DNA from: Egicoccus halophilus
GTDB taxonomy: Bacteria > Actinomycetota > Nitriliruptoria > Nitriliruptorales > Nitriliruptoraceae
DNA: 64,000 nucleotides
Assembly (NCBI RefSeq): GCF_004300825.1
Contig: NZ_CP036250.1
Coordinates: forward strand, 2,046,001 to 2,110,000
Direction of reading: 5' to 3'
Shown here: positions 5,573-44,232 of the stretch, in pieces
How positions within the stretch are numbered: the first letter of the stretch is position 1
Layout: the number at the start of each line of letters is the position of its first letter
Translations under genes and position numbers: made by a program
Notes under the pieces: generated by a model
Seen by the model: the letters and a program-made list of their open reading frames with translations, nothing else
What the model was told of the DNA's origin: nothing
The model's database searches: none

Positions 5573-6613
5573 TCAGCCGATGAAGTCGTTCTCGGTCAGC
5601 CAGTCCTGGGCGACGTCGAGCGGGCGCTCGTTCTCGGAGGACACGCGCGCGTTGAGCTCGGCCATCGTCTCGTCGTCGAGCGCCGCCGTGACCGGGGCGT
5701 AGAGGTCGCTGAGCGTCTGGCCGTACTGCTCGTAGACGTCCTCGACGAACACCGGCGAGACGTTGTACAGCGGGAAGAACGACTGGTCGTCCTCGAGCAC
5801 GACGAGGTCGAGCGTGGCGATGCGACCGTCGGTGGTGAAGATCTCGCCGAAGTTGCACGGGTCGCGGTCGGCCGTGGCGCCGTAGATCACGCCGGTGTCG
5901 AGGACGCTGACGTTGTTCGGGTCGAACTCGTAGCCGTAGTGGGCCTCCATGCCCGGCAGGCCGTCGCTACGGGCCTCGAACTCGGACTCGACGCACAGCG
6001 TCGCCGCGTCCGGATCGGACTCGATGAGCTCACCGAGCTCGGTGAGGGTGTCGACCCCGAGCTCGTCGTGGGCCTCGCGCGACATCGCGATGCCGTAGGT
6101 GTTGTTGAAGGGCGAGGGCTCGAGCCAGTACAGGCCTTCACCGACCTCGAGCTCGCGGACGGCTTCGTACTGCTCCTCGCGGTCGGCGATCGGCTCGGTC
6201 TCGCCGTAGAACTCGATCCAGGCGGTCCCGGTGTACTCCCAGTAGTGGTCGATCTGGCCGCCGGTCAGTGCTTCGCGGGCGGCGAAGGTGCTGCCGAGGT
6301 CGATCTCGTCGACGACCGTGGCACCGGCGTCCTCGAGCAGCAGCTTCGAGATCTCGCCGAGGATGAGTTGCTCGTCGAAGTCCTTCGAACCGACCGTGAT
6401 GGTGGCGCCGTCGAGGGATTCGGAGCCCGGCTCGACCGCGTCGGCCGCGGCGTCGGCGTCGGCGTCGGTGCCGTCATCCGTGGTCGTGTCACCGGTGGTG
6501 GTGTCGTCACCGGTCGCGGTGTCGTCGCCGCCGCCGAAGTCGTCGGCGCCGCAGGCGGTCAGCAGCAGGGCCAGCGCAGCGGCGCCGGCAGTGGTCTTGG
6601 AGAGGTGTCGCAC
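5573..6613 (-). CDS. Glycine betaine/choline-type ABC transporter substrate-binding lipoprotein
   Basis: Extracellular solute receptor of an OpuC/ProX-type osmoprotectant importer. The GTG start at 6613 opens a lipoprotein signal peptide: positively charged start, hydrophobic stretch and lipobox LLTAC with the lipidated Cys near residue 21. An Asp/Thr-rich linker follows, then an OpuAC domain beginning at ITVGSKDFDEQLILGE. Aromatic positions that could cage a quaternary ammonium are visible in HYWEYTGTAW and NNTYG. The mature protein is strongly acidic, as expected for exported proteins of salt-adapted bacteria, but that is only suggestive. It is the last of four importer genes transcribed leftward, 116 bases after the second permease. 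Confidence 0.9.
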   Translation of the reverse strand: MRHLSKTTAGAAALALLLTACGADDFGGGDDTATGDDTTTGDTTTDDGTDADADAAADAVEPGSESLDGATITVGSKDFDEQLILGEISKLLLEDAGATVVDEIDLGSTFAAREALTGGQIDHYWEYTGTAWIEFYGETEPIADREEQYEAVRELEVGEGLYWLEPSPFNNTYGIAMSREAHDELGVDTLTELGELIESDPDAATLCVESEFEARSDGLPGMEAHYGYEFDPNNVSVLDTGVIYGATADRDPCNFGEIFTTDGRIATLDLVVLEDDQSFFPLYNVSPVFVEDVYEQYGQTLSDLYAPVTAALDDETMAELNARVSSENERPLDVAQDWLTENDFIG

Positions 6614-6729
6614 GGGCGTTCTCGATGTCGTGGGGGAGGGGTCGGAGGTGGATGTGCCAGGCCGGCCGGGTGGTCGATCGGTGCGGTCCCGGCCACGGCA
6701 GGGTGCCGACGCGTCGGCGCCGGTCGTAC

Positions 6730-7560
6730 CTACAGGCCGCGCGGGGTCAGACGCTCCTCGACCAGGCCGGCCAGCCAGTCGATGAGCAGGGCGAGGGCGG
6801 AGACCAGCACGGCCCCGGTGACCAGCAGCGGCAGGCGCTGCAGACCGAAGCCCTGGAAGATGGTGCGCCCGAGTCCGCCGCCGCCGAAGAGGAAGGCGAG
6901 GGTCGCGGTTCCCACGTTGAGCACGAGGGCGGTGCGCACGCCGGCCAGGATCACCGGCACCGCCAACGGCAGTTCGATGCGTCGCAGGATCTGGGTCGAG
7001 GACAGGCCCATGCCCCGGCCGGCCTCGAGCACGGCCGCGTCCACCTGGTCGAGGCCGACCATGGTGTTGCGCAGGATGGGCAGGAAGGAGTAGCCGACGA
7101 GCGCGGCGACGACCGGGATGGTGCCGGTGCTGGGGAAGAAGTCGACGTTGCGGGCCGCGAAGAAGATCAGCGCCAGCAGGCCGAGCGACGGGATCGCCTG
7201 ACCGGCGTTGCCGAGTCCGATGATGGCGGGTGCCAGGCGGCGGGTGGCCGTGCGGGTCGCGACGATGCCCAGGGGGATCGCCAGCGCCAGCACGATCACG
7301 GTCGACCAGATGGTCAGGCGCAGGTGTTGCAGCAGCTGGCCGGTCAGCACCTCGCGGCGCAGTTGCCGGGCCTCGATGACGTCGAGCTCGAGCCCCTGTA
7401 CCCACAGGTACAGCCCGATCAGCGCGGCCCCGACCACCAGCGGCGTGCCGGCGTAGTGGAGCAGGTCGCCCAGGCGCGTGCGGCCGCCGGTGTCAGCAGC
7501 CGGACCGCCGGTGCCGGCAGGCGTGGTCGAGGAGGCCTCGACCTCGGGGGGCGCCGCCAT
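6730..7560 (-). CDS. Osmoprotectant ABC transporter permease (second)
   Basis: Integral membrane subunit of the importer, 276 residues with about six hydrophobic segments. The EAA loop that docks on the ATPase reads EAGRGMGLSSTQILRRIELP, followed by PVILAGVRTA, typical of OpuCB/OpuCD or ProW-type permeases. Its start codon shares one base with the stop of the ATPase gene (TGATG at 7558-7562), so translation is probably coupled. Paired with the other permease at 8734-9387, it would make the heterodimeric channel of the OpuC class. Confidence 0.92.
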   Translation of the reverse strand: MAAPPEVEASSTTPAGTGGPAADTGGRTRLGDLLHYAGTPLVVGAALIGLYLWVQGLELDVIEARQLRREVLTGQLLQHLRLTIWSTVIVLALAIPLGIVATRTATRRLAPAIIGLGNAGQAIPSLGLLALIFFAARNVDFFPSTGTIPVVAALVGYSFLPILRNTMVGLDQVDAAVLEAGRGMGLSSTQILRRIELPLAVPVILAGVRTALVLNVGTATLAFLFGGGGLGRTIFQGFGLQRLPLLVTGAVLVSALALLIDWLAGLVEERLTPRGL

Positions 7561-8741
7561 CAGCCGGCCACCATGTCGGCGGGATCGACCAGCTTGGCCG
7601 CCCGGTAGTAGTCGATGTTGGCGTCGCGGACCGCCTGCATCGAGGTGACGAGCGCGTCGACGTCGACGATGCCCTGGTAGGCGCCGCTGCCGTCGACCAC
7701 GATCGCGACACCGGCGGATCCGAGCAGCATCTCCTCGAGTGCGTCCGACAGGGTCGCCTGGGGCTCGACCATGGCACGTGCGGGCAGTCCGAGCTCACGG
7801 ACGGGCCGTTGATGGCGGAAGTCCGGGGCGCGCAGCCAGCGCAGCGGGCGGCGGTGCTCGTCGAGCAGCAGCAGCGCCGTCCAGTCCGAGGCGCCGAGGC
7901 GGGAGCGCAACGTGGCCTCGTCCTCGTCGACCGTCCCGATGGGCCCGTCGGTGAGCCAGGGCACGTCTCGCACCCGGGACAGCTTCAGGCGCTTGAGCGT
8001 GGCCCCCGATCCGACGAAGTCCTCGACGAAGTCGTCCGCCGGGGCGGTCAGGATCTCCTCGGGCGTGGCGAACTGGGCCACGTGCGAGTGCTCGCGCAGG
8101 ATGGCGATGCGATCACCCATCTTGATCGCCTCGTCGATGTCATGGGTGACGAAGACGATGGTCTTCTGCAGTTCGGCCTGCAGACGCAGGAACTCGTTCT
8201 GCAGGCGTGTGCGGGTGATCGGGTCGATCGCGCCGAACGGCTCGTCCATCAGCAGCACGGGCGGGTCGGCCGCCAGCGCACGCGCGACGCCGACACGTTG
8301 CCGCTGACCGCCGGAGAGCTCCTTGGGGTAGCGGTCGCGGTACTGCTCCGGGTCGAGGCCGACCACGCTGAGCAGCTCGTCGACCCGGGCCCGGATGCGG
8401 TCGCGCTCCCAACCGAGCAGGCCGGGCACCGTGGCGACGTTGTCGGCGATGGTCTGATGGGGGAACAGGCCGACCTGCTGGATCACGTACCCCATGCGGC
8501 GACGCAGTTCGTTGGGGTTGCTGCGGGTCACGTCCTCACCGTCGAGCAGGATGCGACCGGCGGAGGGTTCGATGATCCGGTTGATCATCTTCAGACTGGT
8601 CGTCTTCCCGCAGCCGGAGGGGCCGACGAAGACCACGATCTCGCCGCGCGGGATCGCGAGGGACAACCGGTCGACGGCGGGGGCTTCCGTGCCGGGATAG
8701 CGCTTGGTCAGCTCGTCGAGCCGGATCATGGCGTCAGTCAC
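7560..8741 (-). CDS. Osmoprotectant ABC transporter ATP-binding protein with CBS region
   Basis: Energises the importer. The 393-residue protein has Walker A GPSGCGKTT (about residues 38-46), Q-loop QQVGLFPHQ, signature LSGGQRQR, Walker B VLLMDEPFGAID and H-loop FVTHD. It is of the OpuCA/ProV class. After about residue 250 there is a tandem CBS-type region (ending near ALEEML...IVVDGSGAYQGIVDVDALV), which in OpuA-type systems senses ionic strength or cyclic di-AMP; that function is inferred. The GTG start overlaps the upstream permease stop by eight bases; an ATG four codons later is an alternative. Confidence 0.93.
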   Translation of the reverse strand: MTDAMIRLDELTKRYPGTEAPAVDRLSLAIPRGEIVVFVGPSGCGKTTSLKMINRIIEPSAGRILLDGEDVTRSNPNELRRRMGYVIQQVGLFPHQTIADNVATVPGLLGWERDRIRARVDELLSVVGLDPEQYRDRYPKELSGGQRQRVGVARALAADPPVLLMDEPFGAIDPITRTRLQNEFLRLQAELQKTIVFVTHDIDEAIKMGDRIAILREHSHVAQFATPEEILTAPADDFVEDFVGSGATLKRLKLSRVRDVPWLTDGPIGTVDEDEATLRSRLGASDWTALLLLDEHRRPLRWLRAPDFRHQRPVRELGLPARAMVEPQATLSDALEEMLLGSAGVAIVVDGSGAYQGIVDVDALVTSMQAVRDANIDYYRAAKLVDPADMVAG

Positions 8742-36149: not shown

Positions 36150-38678
<2,529 letters not shown>

Positions 38679-38682
<4 letters not shown>

Positions 38683-40976
38683 GGTCGGTCGCTTTCGTTC
38701 GAGCGCGGTCCGCCGGCGGCGGGATCGCGGTGCAGTCGCAGGGGACCACGGGGGGCGATGGTGACCGCGGCGGTCGGGGAGGGGTCGCCGTCGACGGCCC
38801 GCAGCGGGCGCTGCAGGACCACGTCGAGCGCCTCGTCCAGCATCAGCCGCGCCAGGTGGGTACCGAGGCAGGTTCGTTGCCCGGCACTGAAGGGGATGTA
38901 GGTCCAGGCCCGGAATCCGGCGTCGAAGCGACGCGGATCGAACGTGTCCGGGTCACGCCACAACTCGGGACGGCGGTGGGTCAGCATCGGGCTGTAGAAC
39001 ACCAACGTCCCGACCGGGAGGCGCACCCCCTCGAACTCGGTGGCGCGGGCGACGCGGCGGGAGCCGATGAACCCGGGCGGATGCAGGCGCAGGACCTCGT
39101 CGACGGCCTGGCGTCGCCGCTCGGCCGGCTGCCACGCCGGATGGGCGGCCAGGTACCACAGCGCCCACGCCAGCGTGTGGGCCGAGGTGTCGAACCCGGC
39201 GGCGAGGCCGACCCGCAACTCCTCCACGGCGCCGGGGACCGTCGCCAGCGCCGCAGCCAGGTCGTCGGCCTGCGGGTCGTGCTCGCGTCGGCGCAGCTGG
39301 GCCGCCAGCTCCCGCCGCACCGCCCGGCGTGGACCGGGGCGGGGGACCAGCGCGGCCGGCATGCCCTGTTCGAGTGGGTGCAGGTACGCGGCGAGCAGGT
39401 CGTCGGGGAAGCTGCCGGAGAACAGTGCGGCGTTGAGCATCGCCGGCACGGCCTGCAACGACCACGCCAGCCCGTCGAACGACGTCGGCGGGTCGAGTGC
39501 CTCGACGGCCCCGCGGACGCGCGCGCGCAACCGTTCGACGTCGCGGAAGCGGGGCTCGAGCACCTGCCGCCGTGGCCGGTGCACCGGCGCGTCGGTGACG
39601 ATGATTCCGCCGGCGAGGTGGGGGATGAGCGCCGCCATGCTCCGACGGGCGACGAACGTCTCGCCGTCGCGCAGCACGAAGCGGTTCCAGGCCGGTGAGG
39701 TCCCGACGACGGCCGCCTTGCGTGGCAGCCGCAGCTCGAACAGCGGGCCGAGCTCGCTGCCCTCCTCGAGCAGCGCGAGCGGTTCGGTGCCCCAGCGGCC
39801 GAGATGGCCGTGGACGGGATGGCCGGCGGGGGACGGCAGTCCGGTCCCGTCCGAGGGGGTGAGCGGGCTGTCCGGGTGTCGATCCAGGACCGGGGTGTCG
39901 TCGAGCGTCCCGCCGACGTGGATGTCCCGTCCCTTCCAGCGTTGCCGGCGGCGCAGCGCTCCGGCCGCGACGGGCAGGCCGGCCACAGGGAGCAGCGGGG
40001 CGAGCAGCGCCTCGGCCGGGTGGCGCGTGGTGGTGGCCGCGACCAGCGCACGCTGCGCGACGCCCAGCGCCAGTGGCAGGCGCCACGCCCGCGACCGCGG
40101 TGCCAGCAACGCCGGCAGGGTGTAGGCGGCCAGGTGCCAGGCGATGTCCGCGACCAGGAGCGACCGTCTGCCGGCGTGGGCGGTCAGCAGGTTCTTGCCG
40201 AAGCCGGCCATCACCTCGCGGTAGCCGCGGTACATGCGGGTGTGCACGGTTCCGTCGCCGAGTGCCAGCGCCACCTCGTTGCCCTGGCGGCGCGCGAGCC
40301 GGCCGAAGGCGACGTCCTCGACGATGCGCCCGCGCACCGATTCCCAACCGCCGATGGCGTCGTAGATCTCGCGATGGATCGCGATGGCCTGGCCGTTCGC
40401 GGCGACCGCCAGCGGCGACACCTGCGCGTGCAGCAGCGGATAGGGCAGTCCGGACAGCAGCACTTCGTCGATCACGGGCACCGTCAACCGCTCACCCCAG
40501 GTCCGGGTGTCCTGGGAGGGGAAGATCGAGCCGACCCGGGACTCCTGTGCCTCGAGCTCGTCGAGGAAGCCGGCCAGCGCTCCCGGCTCCCAGTGCACGT
40601 CCGCGTCGGTGAACACCAGCCACTCACCGCTGGCGGCCTCGGCGAGCTGGTGCAGCGCCCACGCCTTGCCGAGCCAACCCGGAGGCAGCTCGCGCCCGGC
40701 CAGCACCTGCACCCCGGCGACGGCGGCGGCGACCTCGGCCGTGCCGTCCTCGGAGCCGTCGTCGAGGACGAGCACCTCGCCGGCACCCTGCGCGGCCAGC
40801 AACGGGAGCGTGTGCGGCAGGGTCGCGGCCTCGTCGCGGGCCGGCACGAGCACCGACACCCGGGAGAGGTCCGCCCGCTCGCTCGGTCGCAACCGGGGGA
40901 AGGTGCGCCAGTTGACGACGTTGACGGCCACGCGCACCGCCAGGAAGCCGGTGACGGCGTGCCGCAGCCCGTTCAT
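38679..40976 (-). CDS. Glycosyltransferase family 2 - cytochrome P450 fusion protein
   Basis: One 765-residue frame with two enzymes. Residues 1-350: family-2 glycosyltransferase, with VSVLVPARDEAATLP and LVLDDGSEDGT (donor binding), DxD-like FTDADVHWEPGAL (124-126), Glu-Asp in RGRIVEDVAFGRL, then hydrophobic helices to about 340. It resembles carotenoid glycosyltransferases of the CrtQ type. After a Pro/Gly/Asp linker (about 345-385), residues 385-765 are a complete P450: I-helix AGFDTSAHT (593-601), ExxR EVLR (627-630) and haem loop FSAGQRTCLG (Cys703). The linker contains no in-frame ATG, GTG or TTG, which argues against two separate proteins. Start and stop overlap the neighbouring carotenoid genes. 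Predicted role: oxidise a carotenoid and glycosylate it. Confidence 0.9.
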
Positions 40977-41698
40977 CGCACCCATTCGAGCACCTTCGTG
41001 CGCACGGAGGCGAACAGGAGCATCCCCTGCACGACCACCAGGTTCGTGACGAGGAAGAAGAGCGCCTCCTCGAGTGGCAGGGGCCCGAGTGCGATGCCGG
41101 TGGTGAAGCGCTCGCTGATCGACCAGATGCCGTTCGCGATCGCGAAGCCGTCGGCGAACCACAGGTACACCGTCGGGACGACCCAGGCCGGCCACAGCTG
41201 CCGGAGACGGTCGGCGAGCCAGCGGCCGCCGAACCACCACTGCAGGGCCAGTGGCGGCCCGATCCAGGCCAGGATGAGCCCGAGGTACCGGGTCGGCTCG
41301 GGAACGACGAGTGCTGCCGAGGCCAGGATCCCGACGCCCCAGGCGAGCACCGTCACGCGGCTCGCGCGCTCGGTCGGCGGGGGCGGCGCCAGCAGTTCGG
41401 CACGCTGCATCAGCAGGATCGTCCAGCCGCCGGTCAACAGCGTCTGCAGCCCGAAGAACAGGTACTCCTCGACGGGGACGTACCAGATGGTGCCGAGCAC
41501 GCGACCGTCGCCGTACCCCCACACCTCGCTGGCGACGAGGTAGTTGTCCCAGGGAGTGGTCCACACGTAGGCGATGACGACGAGCGTGGCGAGGCCGGCG
41601 CCCAGCCAGGGCCGCTGCCGCAGTGCACGGGTCACCGGCACGGCCAGCAGTACGAGCAGGGGCAGCAGGAAGACGAGGTGGAACTGCAGGTAGGTCAC
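40973..41698 (-). CDS. crtYcd: Two-domain lycopene cyclase (CrtYc-CrtYd fused type)
   Basis: Membrane enzyme that closes the end rings of lycopene. 241 residues contain two tandem copies of the small lycopene-cyclase domain that in corynebacteria are separate CrtYc/CrtYd (or CrtYe/CrtYf) subunits. Each copy has its acidic motif: domain 1 WDNYLVASEVWGYG and VPVEEYLFF (about residues 50-85), domain 2 LWFADGFAIANGIW and LPLEEALFF (about 180-215). About six to seven membrane helices. This is the layout of haloarchaeal and some bacterial enzymes. GTG start overlaps the crtB stop (GTGA) and its stop overlaps the next start (ATGA). Beta versus epsilon ring type cannot be read. Confidence 0.9.
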   Translation of the reverse strand: MTYLQFHLVFLLPLLVLLAVPVTRALRQRPWLGAGLATLVVIAYVWTTPWDNYLVASEVWGYGDGRVLGTIWYVPVEEYLFFGLQTLLTGGWTILLMQRAELLAPPPPTERASRVTVLAWGVGILASAALVVPEPTRYLGLILAWIGPPLALQWWFGGRWLADRLRQLWPAWVVPTVYLWFADGFAIANGIWSISERFTTGIALGPLPLEEALFFLVTNLVVVQGMLLFASVRTKVLEWVR

Positions 41699-42606
41699 CG
41701 CGCGGCTCCGGCGCGCGACCCGAGCAGGGTCGGCGAACGACCGGTGGCGGAGGCGTCGGGCCGCCCGGCACGCGCCAGGGTGCGGGCACTGCCGAGCAGG
41801 CGGGCCCGTCGGGCGCCGGGGACCGAGGCGCGGCGGCGCAGGTTGTCCCAGCGGCTCGCACGCAACTCGTCGAGGATGCCGCGGTACTGGACGGCGGCGT
41901 ACGCGACGGCGGTGCGGTGGGCGGTGAGGTGGCCGAGACCGGCCAGGCCGATCTCGTAGCGACGCTCGGCCTCGTGAGCGAGATGCTCCATGAGTCGCAG
42001 GTAGCCGGTGTCGCGCACGTCGTTCCTCAGGTGGTCGAGCGTGACACCGTAGGCGGTGAGCAGTTCGGCGGGCAGATACACCCGGTCGCGTGCGAGGTCC
42101 TCGCCGACGTCGCGCAGACAGTTGGTGAGCTGCATCGCCCGACCGAGCTGGTCGGCGGCGTGTTCGGCCTCCGGACCGGCGGCACCGCAGATCGGCGCGA
42201 CCATGAGCCCGACCGCTCCGGCGACGCGGTAGCAGTAGGTGTCGAGTTCCGCGAGCGTCGGAACCCGCACGGGACCGAGGTCCGAGCGGAAGCCGTCGGC
42301 CAGCGCGTGGAAGGCCGGCCGCGGCACCGGATAGCGGCGGACCGCCCACGCCAGCGCCCGCTCCCACGGTGCCACCGGTCGTCCGAGGTAGGCCTGCTCG
42401 ACGCGTGTCTGCCAGGCGGCGACGGCCTCCTGCGGTCGCGCGCTGAGGTCCGCCGCGTCGTCGCCGATACGGCAGGCCGCGTACACCGCCCGGGTGGCGC
42501 GGCGGCGCTCACCGCTCATCAGACAGGTGCCGAGCCAGAAGGTCGTCGAGTGCTGCCGGATGACGGCGGTGACCTCCGGCCAGACCGTGTTCGAGGGCCG
42601 GCTCAT
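41695..42606 (-). CDS. crtB: Phytoene synthase (squalene/phytoene synthase family)
   Basis: Head-to-head condensation of two geranylgeranyl diphosphates to phytoene. 303 residues with early motif HSTTFWLGTCLM, the first Asp-rich IGDDAADL, YCYRVAGAVGLM and the second Asp-rich LTNCLRDVGEDLARDRVYLP. The pairing with CrtI and lycopene cyclase supports phytoene rather than squalene as product. The C-terminal 40 residues are Arg/Ala-rich and beyond the enzyme fold. ATG overlaps the prenyl-synthase stop (ATGA). Confidence 0.94.
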   Translation of the reverse strand: MSRPSNTVWPEVTAVIRQHSTTFWLGTCLMSGERRRATRAVYAACRIGDDAADLSARPQEAVAAWQTRVEQAYLGRPVAPWERALAWAVRRYPVPRPAFHALADGFRSDLGPVRVPTLAELDTYCYRVAGAVGLMVAPICGAAGPEAEHAADQLGRAMQLTNCLRDVGEDLARDRVYLPAELLTAYGVTLDHLRNDVRDTGYLRLMEHLAHEAERRYEIGLAGLGHLTAHRTAVAYAAVQYRGILDELRASRWDNLRRRASVPGARRARLLGSARTLARAGRPDASATGRSPTLLGSRAGAAR

Positions 42607-43691
42607 ACGGCCACCGTCGCGGCCTCGGGGACCGGGACCGTCCCTGACGCGACCACCCCGGACGACCGGGTGTCCGACGCGCCGGCACCGGACGGCACGG
42701 CCGCCGAGGCGGTGCCGGACGGGACGAGGGAGCGCGCCAGCTCGCGCAACCCGTGTCGGGCCCCGCCGTCGGGTAGCACGGCGAGATGGTCGTCGGCCCG
42801 CGCGAGGAGGCGGTCGACGGTCGCCTCCGCACGTTCCAGTGCCCCCGACGTCCGCACGATGTCGATGGCCTCCTCGACCACGTCCGCGGGATGCGGAGGT
42901 GGCGCGGCCAGCACCCTACGCAGGTGCCGGCCGGCGTGCCCTTCCACGGCATCGAGCACCGGCCAGGTGTAGACGCCGAGGCGAAGGTCGTTCCCGACGG
43001 GTTTGCCCGTGTCGTCCGCGGTCGCGGTCAGGTCCAGCAGGTCGTCGGCCAGCTGGAAGGCCACGCCGAGCGTGCGGCCCCACGCCTCGGCAGCCTGTCG
43101 TCGCACGGATGTGGCGTCCGCGACGGCCGCGCCGACGTGCGCCGCGGCGGCCAGCAGGGAGGCCGTCTTGCCGTCGACGACGTCGAGGTAGGCGGCGACG
43201 CCGCCGTCGAGACGGCCCAACAGCAACGTCTCGTGCCGCTCGCCCTCGACCAGGCGACGATAGGTACCGGCGAGCACGCCCGGGGTCTCGCTGCCGGCGG
43301 CCGCGGCCGACGCGAACGCGAGCGCCGTGAGCCGGTCCCCGGCCAGGACGGCCAGCCGCTCACCCCACGTGGCGTTCACGCTGGGAACGCCACGCCGGGT
43401 GCTGGCGGCATCGATCACGTCGTCGTGGTAGAGCGTGGACAGGTGCAGCAGTTCACAGGCCATGGCGGCGTCGAGGAGCCGCTCCGGAGGGGTCGGCGAC
43501 ACCGACGCACCGACCAGCAGGGTCACCAGCGGCCGGAACCGCTTGCCTCCCGCAGCCAGCAGGTGATGACCGGTGCGGTCCGCCAGGGCCACGGGAGAGC
43601 TCACGGCGGTCGCGAGACCGTCCTCGACCTCCTGCAGCCTGCTGGTCAACCAGTGCCGCAGGGGGGCGTCGATGTGTGCGATGGCGTCCAC
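42603..43691 (-). CDS. crtE: Polyprenyl (geranylgeranyl-type) diphosphate synthase
   Basis: Chain-elongating trans-prenyltransferase supplying the C20 precursor for phytoene. 362 residues from GTG 43691, preceded by GGGAAG. It has GGKRFRPLVTLLVG, first Asp-rich motif LYHDDVIDAASTRRG, GDRLTALAF, and second Asp-rich motif FQLADDLLDLTATADDTGKPVGNDL. Residues near 320-362 are a low-complexity Ser/Ala/Pro tail. First gene of the operon; 139 bases separate it from a divergent gene. Product length (C15, C20 or longer) is inferred from context only. The frame is open further upstream, but the first 50 residues there show no similarity. Confidence 0.88.
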   Translation of the reverse strand: MDAIAHIDAPLRHWLTSRLQEVEDGLATAVSSPVALADRTGHHLLAAGGKRFRPLVTLLVGASVSPTPPERLLDAAMACELLHLSTLYHDDVIDAASTRRGVPSVNATWGERLAVLAGDRLTALAFASAAAAGSETPGVLAGTYRRLVEGERHETLLLGRLDGGVAAYLDVVDGKTASLLAAAAHVGAAVADATSVRRQAAEAWGRTLGVAFQLADDLLDLTATADDTGKPVGNDLRLGVYTWPVLDAVEGHAGRHLRRVLAAPPPHPADVVEEAIDIVRTSGALERAEATVDRLLARADDHLAVLPDGGARHGLRELARSLVPSGTASAAVPSGAGASDTRSSGVVASGTVPVPEAATVAV

Positions 43692-43799
43692 GCGGCTCTT
43701 CCCGACGGCGATCGTTGCATCGTGCAGACATTCGGTGCCCGCCCGCCCGTGGATTGACGGCCGATCGACCGGGCCCGGAGCGCCCGGGGCGGACACCGC

Positions 43800-43805
43800 T
43801 AGGCT
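43800..43805 (+). promoter_or_regulatory. TAGGCT -10-like element
   Basis: TAGGCT lies 31 bases before the GTG of the small membrane protein gene and matches the hexamer seen before other genes. The carotenoid operon promoter must lie in the same 139-base divergent gap. Confidence 0.4.
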
Positions 43806-43830
43806 TCGCGCGCCGAGCAGGAGGTCACCG

Positions 43831-44232
43831 GTGGACATCCTCACCACGATCCACCAGTTCGCGGGCTACGTGATCGCGCTCGTCGTGCTCGCTTCGGCGA
43901 CGGCCGCTTTCGGGCGCGCCCACGACGCCCGCGAGTTCACCGCCGGCCCCTACGTGGCCGCCGCCGTCCTGCTCGACGTGCAGGTCACGCTCGGGCTGGT
44001 GATCTACGGCGTGGGTGGCTACTGGGACCATGCCTCGCCGCTGCTGCGCTACGTGCACCCGCTGCTGGCCGTGCTGGCGTTGGTCGCCGCGCACGTGGGC
44101 GTGCGACGGGGACGTGCGCAGCGGATGGCCGCCGAGGCCCATCAGGCGGCGGGTCGCGGGCTGCTCGTGGCGCTCGTGCTCGTCTTCGGTGCCGTCATGG
44201 CCTCCACGGTCGGTGTCCGCGGCCTGATCTGA
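43831..44232 (+). CDS. Small four-helix membrane protein of unknown function
   Basis: 133 residues with four predicted membrane helices, GTG start with a strong AGGAGG site seven bases upstream. Histidines occur at helix edges (ILTTIHQFAGYVIAL near the start, LLRYVHPLLAVLALVAAHVG in helix 3, EAHQAAGRGLLV), a pattern seen in small haem-binding b-type membrane proteins. The similarity is not strong enough to assign. Divergent from the carotenoid operon and about 95 bases before the histidine kinase on the same strand. Confidence 0.7.
   Translation: MDILTTIHQFAGYVIALVVLASATAAFGRAHDAREFTAGPYVAAAVLLDVQVTLGLVIYGVGGYWDHASPLLRYVHPLLAVLALVAAHVGVRRGRAQRMAAEAHQAAGRGLLVALVLVFGAVMASTVGVRGLI

Follow-up and report, generated by a model that had tools for sequence, protein, structure and literature searches.

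In the window, the stretch of 64,000 nucleotides of the Egicoccus halophilus genome that was analysed, a single gene joins a family 2 glycosyltransferase (GT2) to a cytochrome P450 within a carotenoid operon (Table 1). All genes of this operon lie on the minus strand, in the order crtE, crtB, crtYcd, the GT-P450 gene, crtI and idi2. The carotenoid context had been claimed in an earlier, sequence-only reading of this DNA, with linkage to crtB and crtI named among its checks, and is confirmed by the NCBIfam matches of the neighbouring genes. The operon (36150-43847) is chained by 4-nt ATGA or GTGA overlaps, except for crtI and idi2, which overlap by 8 nt.

Table 1. Features of the carotenoid operon and parts of the fused gene, in window coordinates.
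Feature	Position	Strand	Basis or remark
crtE, polyprenyl (geranylgeranyl) diphosphate synthase type	42603..43847	-	NCBIfam; start codon uncertain
crtB, phytoene synthase type	41695..42606	-	phytoene/squalene-synthase type match, operon position, synteny
crtYcd, fused heterodimer-type lycopene cyclase	40973..41698	-	two TIGR03462 domains
GT2-P450 fusion gene	38679..40976	-	translation, Pfam, motifs
Glycosyltransferase half, residues 1-352	39921..40976	-	Pfam, motifs, 50% identity to Thermus thermophilus GT
Linker, residues 353-380, HVGGTLDDTPVLDRHPDSPLTPSDGTGL	39837..39920	-	without usable start codon; coding GC periodicity
ACG codon 357, site of the ATG of the relatives' ATGA overlap	39906..39908	-	placement decided by gapped alignment
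P450 half, residues 381-765 (I-helix AGFDT, ExxR 627-630, haem Cys703)	38682..39836	-	
crtI, phytoene desaturase family	37189..38682	-	TIGR02734
idi2/fni, type 2 isopentenyl-diphosphate isomerase	36150..37196	-	TIGR02151, above cut-off

The fused gene is read in translation as one frame of 765 codons, from the ATG at 40976 to the TGA at 38679-38681. This bears out the uninterrupted GT2-P450 frame that had been described earlier without mention of its strand. The frame remains open upstream to 41861, but an upstream start was dropped because the gene would then overlap the whole of crtYcd in another frame; the ATG at 40976 avoids this and forms an ATGA overlap with crtYcd. At the other end the gene shares a GTGA with crtI, so that both of the four-base overlaps claimed for its ends are present. 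A domain search, which had been proposed as a check, finds PF00535 at residues 41-191 (2.3e-17; 63.8 bits against a cut-off of 23.3) and PF00067 in the C-terminal half (1.8e-34; 119.7 bits). The catalytic motifs are all found where the earlier reading had placed them: the DxD of the glycosyltransferase (DAD) at residues 124-126, the I-helix motif AGFDTSAHT from residue 593, ExxR at 627-630 and the haem loop FSAGQRTCLG from residue 696 with Cys703. The linker of about 28 residues is rich in proline, aspartate and threonine, and it is indeed devoid of starts, as there is no in-frame ATG, GTG or TTG between the GTG at codon 331 and the GTG at codon 434.

Membership of glycosyltransferase family 2 (GT-A) was defined by a PF00535 or PF13641 match above the gathering score, a DxD motif and a GT-A fold, and the N-terminal half has a Pfam match above that score, the motif and the fold. 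In the predicted structure, a confident GT-A domain with its core at about residues 38-240, resembling GT2 structures such as 6yv7, is followed by long helices, and hydrophobic stretches are found near the C-terminus of this half at about 273-291 and 323-341. The glycosyltransferase is 50% identical over 252 aa (6e-65) to that encoded on pTT27 of Thermus thermophilus HB27 (TT_P0062), and by similarity and cluster context it is classed as a predicted carotenoid glycosyltransferase of the Thermus CruC type. It is not an HpnB (TIGR03469) equivalog, with 126 bits against a curated NCBIfam cut-off of 379, nor a CruG (NF045692) equivalog, with 110 bits against a curated cut-off of 600; judged by these scores, HpnB and CruG belong to the same superfamily but are other equivalogs. 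The C-terminal half is a P450 by its PF00067 match, the A/GGxD/ET motif of the I-helix, ExxR and the FxxGxRxCxG haem loop. Modelled separately, it reaches a moderate mean pLDDT of 67, with a Foldseek probability of 1.00 to P450 structures.

In relatives of E. halophilus the same two enzymes are encoded by separate genes. The window halves match in different frames, i.e., as two genes, in three congeners (G001, G002, and G003) and in a genome of the same family, Nitriliruptoraceae (G019, whose locus is also L040), and the operon of these relatives has the gene content and order of the window operon, apart from one extra gene (plsC) in G019. In all four, the TGA of the glycosyltransferase gene overlaps the ATG of the P450 gene as ATGA (GGCGGATGACGG, GCACGATGAGGC, GGACGATGACCC, and GGCCGATGACCT), whereas the window junction reads GGC GGG ACG CTC GAC GAC. 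The P450 lead that precedes the conserved LPSP motif comprises 23 residues in the window, whereas the four relatives have 12, 7, 3, and 10. Identity to the separate genes of these genomes amounts to 63-81% for the glycosyltransferase half and 68-83% for the P450 half. In a tree of five operon proteins the window is sister to G003 and nested within the genus; the two-gene state is therefore the ancestral one, from which the fusion arose. The alignments are best read as a change of the ATG to ACG, by which the P450 start and the glycosyltransferase stop would have been lost together, plus frame-restoring indels. From these comparisons the fusion is judged recent, derived and secondary, and it is confined in the available data to one species. 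Fusion is not required for the pathway, since both proteins are encoded in the congeners by two genes joined through an ATGA overlap. Given the 4-nt overlaps that run through the operon, few mutations would suffice for additional genes to fuse. The PlsC-type acyltransferase gene of G019 (6257-6874 in L040) lies between crtYcd and the glycosyltransferase gene, and its product is 41% identical to the Thermus CruD-type enzyme; the lack of plsC at 40973-40976 in the window genus suggests that the acylation step was lost or moved elsewhere.

The third 4-nt overlap, which the relatives carry in the middle of what is one gene in the window, also changes the weight of an earlier argument. The overlaps at both gene ends had been taken to make a split by error unlikely; this argument does not stand on its own, but the conclusion that the fusion is real does stand, on other evidence. 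An artefact of assembly or sequencing would mean that in the true genome the two enzymes are encoded separately and the genes overlap by ATGA, like those of its relatives; a split is what every relative found shows, and the window is known from an assembly and not from reads. Several independent errors would however be required to produce the window sequence, namely the change from ATG to ACG, a change of frame and an LPSP lead that is longer by at least 11 codons. Coding periodicity is kept across this longer lead, with GC fractions at the three codon positions of 0.79/0.54/0.89 in the linker and 0.78/0.52/0.94 and 0.79/0.55/0.91 in its flanks. The junction is free of stops in all three frames (none was found in codons 264-665 of one alternative frame and 161-674 of the other), and no standard P450 start codon was found there, so a single-base error cannot hide a stop or a start and no single indel restores the split; an apparent fusion by a single-base frameshift was rejected on these grounds. 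Moreover, the genome is one 3.98-Mb contig. An artefact is therefore regarded as very improbable, and the gene is, on the evidence of its sequence, a genuine lineage-specific GT2-P450 fusion.

The P450 has lost its own start codon, which would fit a non-functional half that decays after the fusion, leaving the glycosyltransferase as the only part that matters. Set against this, the frame runs uninterrupted to its stop codon, which has kept its overlap with crtI, and every P450 motif is present. Against two congeners, the pN/pS ratio is 0.27-0.28 in the P450 half and 0.32-0.33 in the glycosyltransferase half, compared to 0.20-0.41 in the other crt genes and 0.25 for the congeners' own separate P450s; being pairwise, these ratios cover all of the divergence and do not isolate the fused branch. 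Both halves fall within the range of the crt genes, thus purifying selection persists on both. Degradation of the P450 was rejected because its ratio is comparable to those of the neighbours, and we consider a decaying P450 half extremely unlikely. Some separate P450 may be made at a low level from a non-canonical start (ACG, ATC, or CTG).

Within the class, the P450 is carried by five of 66 genomes and is fused in the window genome only. In a sample of 396 genomes from the phylum, only four passed the threshold, all of them already known. When about 85,000 species genomes were scanned with two short peptide patterns, a search that is not exhaustive and may omit the window's own genome, close P450 relatives turned up only in L040-L043, none of them fused; L042 has the same genes as G001. 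Glycosyltransferase and P450 genes are often close together in 111 genomes of the Meiothermus phylum, but they are separate in all four loci inspected there (L041, L072, L073, and L074), with a desaturase gene between them in three. None of the plasmid records covers both halves, and a literature search gave no named GT-P450 fusion and nothing relevant on the carotenoids of the lineage. The search for the same two-domain architecture, which the sequence-only reading had called for, thus gave no second example in the genomes, plasmids and literature covered. A natural fusion of a P450 with a hydrolase is MpaDE of Penicillium, which acts in mycophenolic acid biosynthesis (PMC10189230). There the P450 is likewise joined to an enzyme of the same pathway, although MpaDE is fungal, has a hydrolase partner and belongs to an unrelated pathway. 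The GT-P450 architecture is new to the collections searched; its enzymes, the logic of the pathway and the way in which the genes fused are all familiar.

Comparison with characterized carotenoid clusters bears on the function of the two halves. The pTT27 cluster of Thermus HB27 holds crtB, CYP175A1, crtYcd, plsC, a glycosyltransferase gene, crtI and fni, and has been attributed to thermozeaxanthin, in which zeaxanthin carries glucose and an acyl group; a pigment of the beta-carotene type is there first hydroxylated and then glycosylated (PMC4021367). Of this type of gene set, the window operon has crtB, crtI, a crtY-type cyclase, the P450 and the glycosyltransferase; the CruD-type acyltransferase gene of Thermus is missing from it, and PlsC homologues elsewhere in the genome are weak only. 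Besides the glycosyltransferase, CrtYcd (48%), CrtB (53%), and Idi2 (60%) are similar to their Thermus counterparts, whereas the P450 and CYP175A1 share only some 28-36% identity, and in Thermus the glycosyltransferase and P450 genes are separate and not adjacent. A different relationship is seen with clusters of the Meiothermus type (cruF-plsC-GT-crtD-P450; as in M. rufus, L041), which hold the closest relatives of the P450 outside the actinobacteria (52-54% identity over about 370 aa) and a glycosyltransferase with 46-50% identity. In these clusters a desaturase gene lies between the glycosyltransferase and P450 genes and CruF is present, and the pigment of M. ruber is glycosylated at the 1'-hydroxyl. 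CruF would supply such a 1'-hydroxyl. No CruF (PF04240) and no close paralogue of CrtI/CrtD were found in the window genome. A CruF-derived acceptor is thus ruled out there, and it is most likely the P450 that provides the hydroxyl which the glycosyltransferase requires.

The two halves might nevertheless act on different positions or substrates, with the P450 oxidizing the ring (to a C-2 ketone or hydroxyl), as is presumed for Meiothermus, and the glycosyltransferase using a hydroxyl that the P450 did not make. Such a division of labour would agree with the nearest non-actinobacterial relatives of the P450, which lie in clusters with cruF, crtD and a glycosyltransferase gene, and with M. ruber, whose pigment bears a ring 2-one and, at the far end, glucose on the 1'-hydroxyl (PMC4384146; PMC3035268). 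It is unlikely for the window genome, which lacks CruF and has a CrtYcd-type cyclase as found in the Thermus cluster for a bicyclic pigment, so that no 1'-hydroxyl is expected; in addition, the glycosyltransferase matches the one that Thermus pairs with a ring-hydroxylating P450. The earlier proposal of hydroxylation followed by glycosylation therefore remains the best-supported logic, given the Thermus-like gene content (PMC4021367) and the absence of CruF. Judged from sequence, the glycosyltransferase and the P450 are probably consecutive enzymes of a xanthophyll-glycoside pathway, and the protein is most likely a bifunctional beta-carotene hydroxylase-glycosyltransferase.

Which ring carbon is oxidized is indicated less sharply. 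P450s are assigned to the same family when they share at least about 40% of their amino acids. By this rule the P450 half falls in the same CYP family as the Meiothermus enzymes and below the limit for CYP175, the family of the beta-carotene 3-hydroxylase CYP175A1, so that C-3 regiochemistry is not implied. For the ketone of M. ruber a CrtO-type ketolase has been suggested (PMC4384146); we infer that the Meiothermus P450 may be responsible for the 2-one instead. Another bacterial P450 that hydroxylates a carotenoid beta-ring, the role predicted here, is CYP287A1 of Deinococcus radiodurans, a carotenoid 2-beta-hydroxylase (PMC11306087) that is a separate enzyme. No close match to the P450 half was found in the 2.6-3.7-Mb genomes searched from that phylum. 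The resemblance to Meiothermus indicates ring oxidation at C-2 as much as at C-3. A CrtZ-like hydroxylase was considered and rejected, since the sole PF04116 protein of the genome, of 307 aa, comes nearest among the NCBIfam models to an ornithine lipid hydroxylase, with a score far short of the cut-off. It is potentially a second member of a hydroxylase family and as such counts against the reading preferred below.

The reading preferred here, to which we assign a probability of roughly three in four, is that two translationally coupled xanthophyll-glycoside genes fused in frame into a single bifunctional GT2-linker-P450 enzyme. The loss of the shared ATGA stop/start together with frame-restoring indels would have made one frame of two coupled genes. 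CrtE, CrtB, CrtI, and CrtYcd would supply a carotenoid of the beta-carotene type, the ring of which the P450 would hydroxylate, either at C-3, the position used by CYP175A1 of Thermus, or at C-2, as suggested by the chemistry of Meiothermus. Glycosylation of this hydroxyl by the GT would then yield a pigment resembling zeaxanthin glucoside. The N-terminal GT2 half is predicted to be membrane-associated and would hold the P450 at the cytosolic face in a 1:1 ratio. The basic segment RRRQRWKGRD, which immediately precedes the linker, is probably cytosolic by the positive-inside rule. In a model of the whole fusion the glycosyltransferase is good and the linker and P450 are poor (mean pLDDT 56), and therefore no claim is made on the relative placement of the active sites. 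In the relatives, the ATGA overlap presumably gives a similar ratio of glycosyltransferase to P450; 4-nt overlaps link the translation of two genes through termination-reinitiation, and they are over-represented where the genes encode subunits of heteromeric complexes (PMC10666635).

Substrate channelling by the fusion is possible. The more specific idea that the glycosyltransferase tethers a normally soluble-type bacterial P450 to the membrane, with the hydroxylated intermediate passing directly from the haem to the sugar-transfer site, is tentative and rather doubtful. Almost an even chance is given to a fusion that is real and functionally neutral, a chance product of few mutational steps in which the enzymes act as in the relatives, by free diffusion in the membrane and without channelling. 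The congeners manage without the fusion, the P450 is fused in one of the five class genomes that carry it, and fusion across an ATGA overlap takes hardly more than a single base substitution plus a shift of frame. There is no direct counter-evidence, and purifying selection on both halves fits neutrality and the preferred reading alike. As the fused form is known from a single genome, drift without functional gain would be just as likely as selection. The genus thereby offers a natural experiment, in which the same two enzymes, at 78-84% identity, are fused in one species and split by an ATGA in its congeners. A comparison of the fused and split forms would directly test whether a P450-GT fusion raises flux or merely follows from translational coupling. 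For the production of carotenoid glycosides, the gene further offers a P450-GT fusion that already exists, and it draws attention to short operonic overlaps as stepping stones to multifunctional enzymes.

Adjacent pairs of the two genes also occur outside the family, with a GTGA overlap instead of ATGA. One is found at 585-2785 in L043, a distant Actinomycetota MAG, where no other carotenoid gene was recognised on about 10 kb. The other is on the reverse strand of L072 (about 6046-8291), reached through the Meiothermus phylum; here the glycosyltransferase and P450 genes adjoin, in contrast to Meiothermus rufus with its intervening desaturase, and transfer or independent rearrangement are possible origins. 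Six loci from other families of the class (L054, L055, L056, L057, L058, and L059) have CruF, a glycosyltransferase and CrtI/CrtD-type desaturases, with no such P450 nearby; one glycosyltransferase lineage thus serves two pathway types. A second glycosyltransferase of the same family, 50% identical to that of the window, is encoded outside the P450 cluster in a Meiothermus rufus genome (G423, contig C85, 4134-5150).
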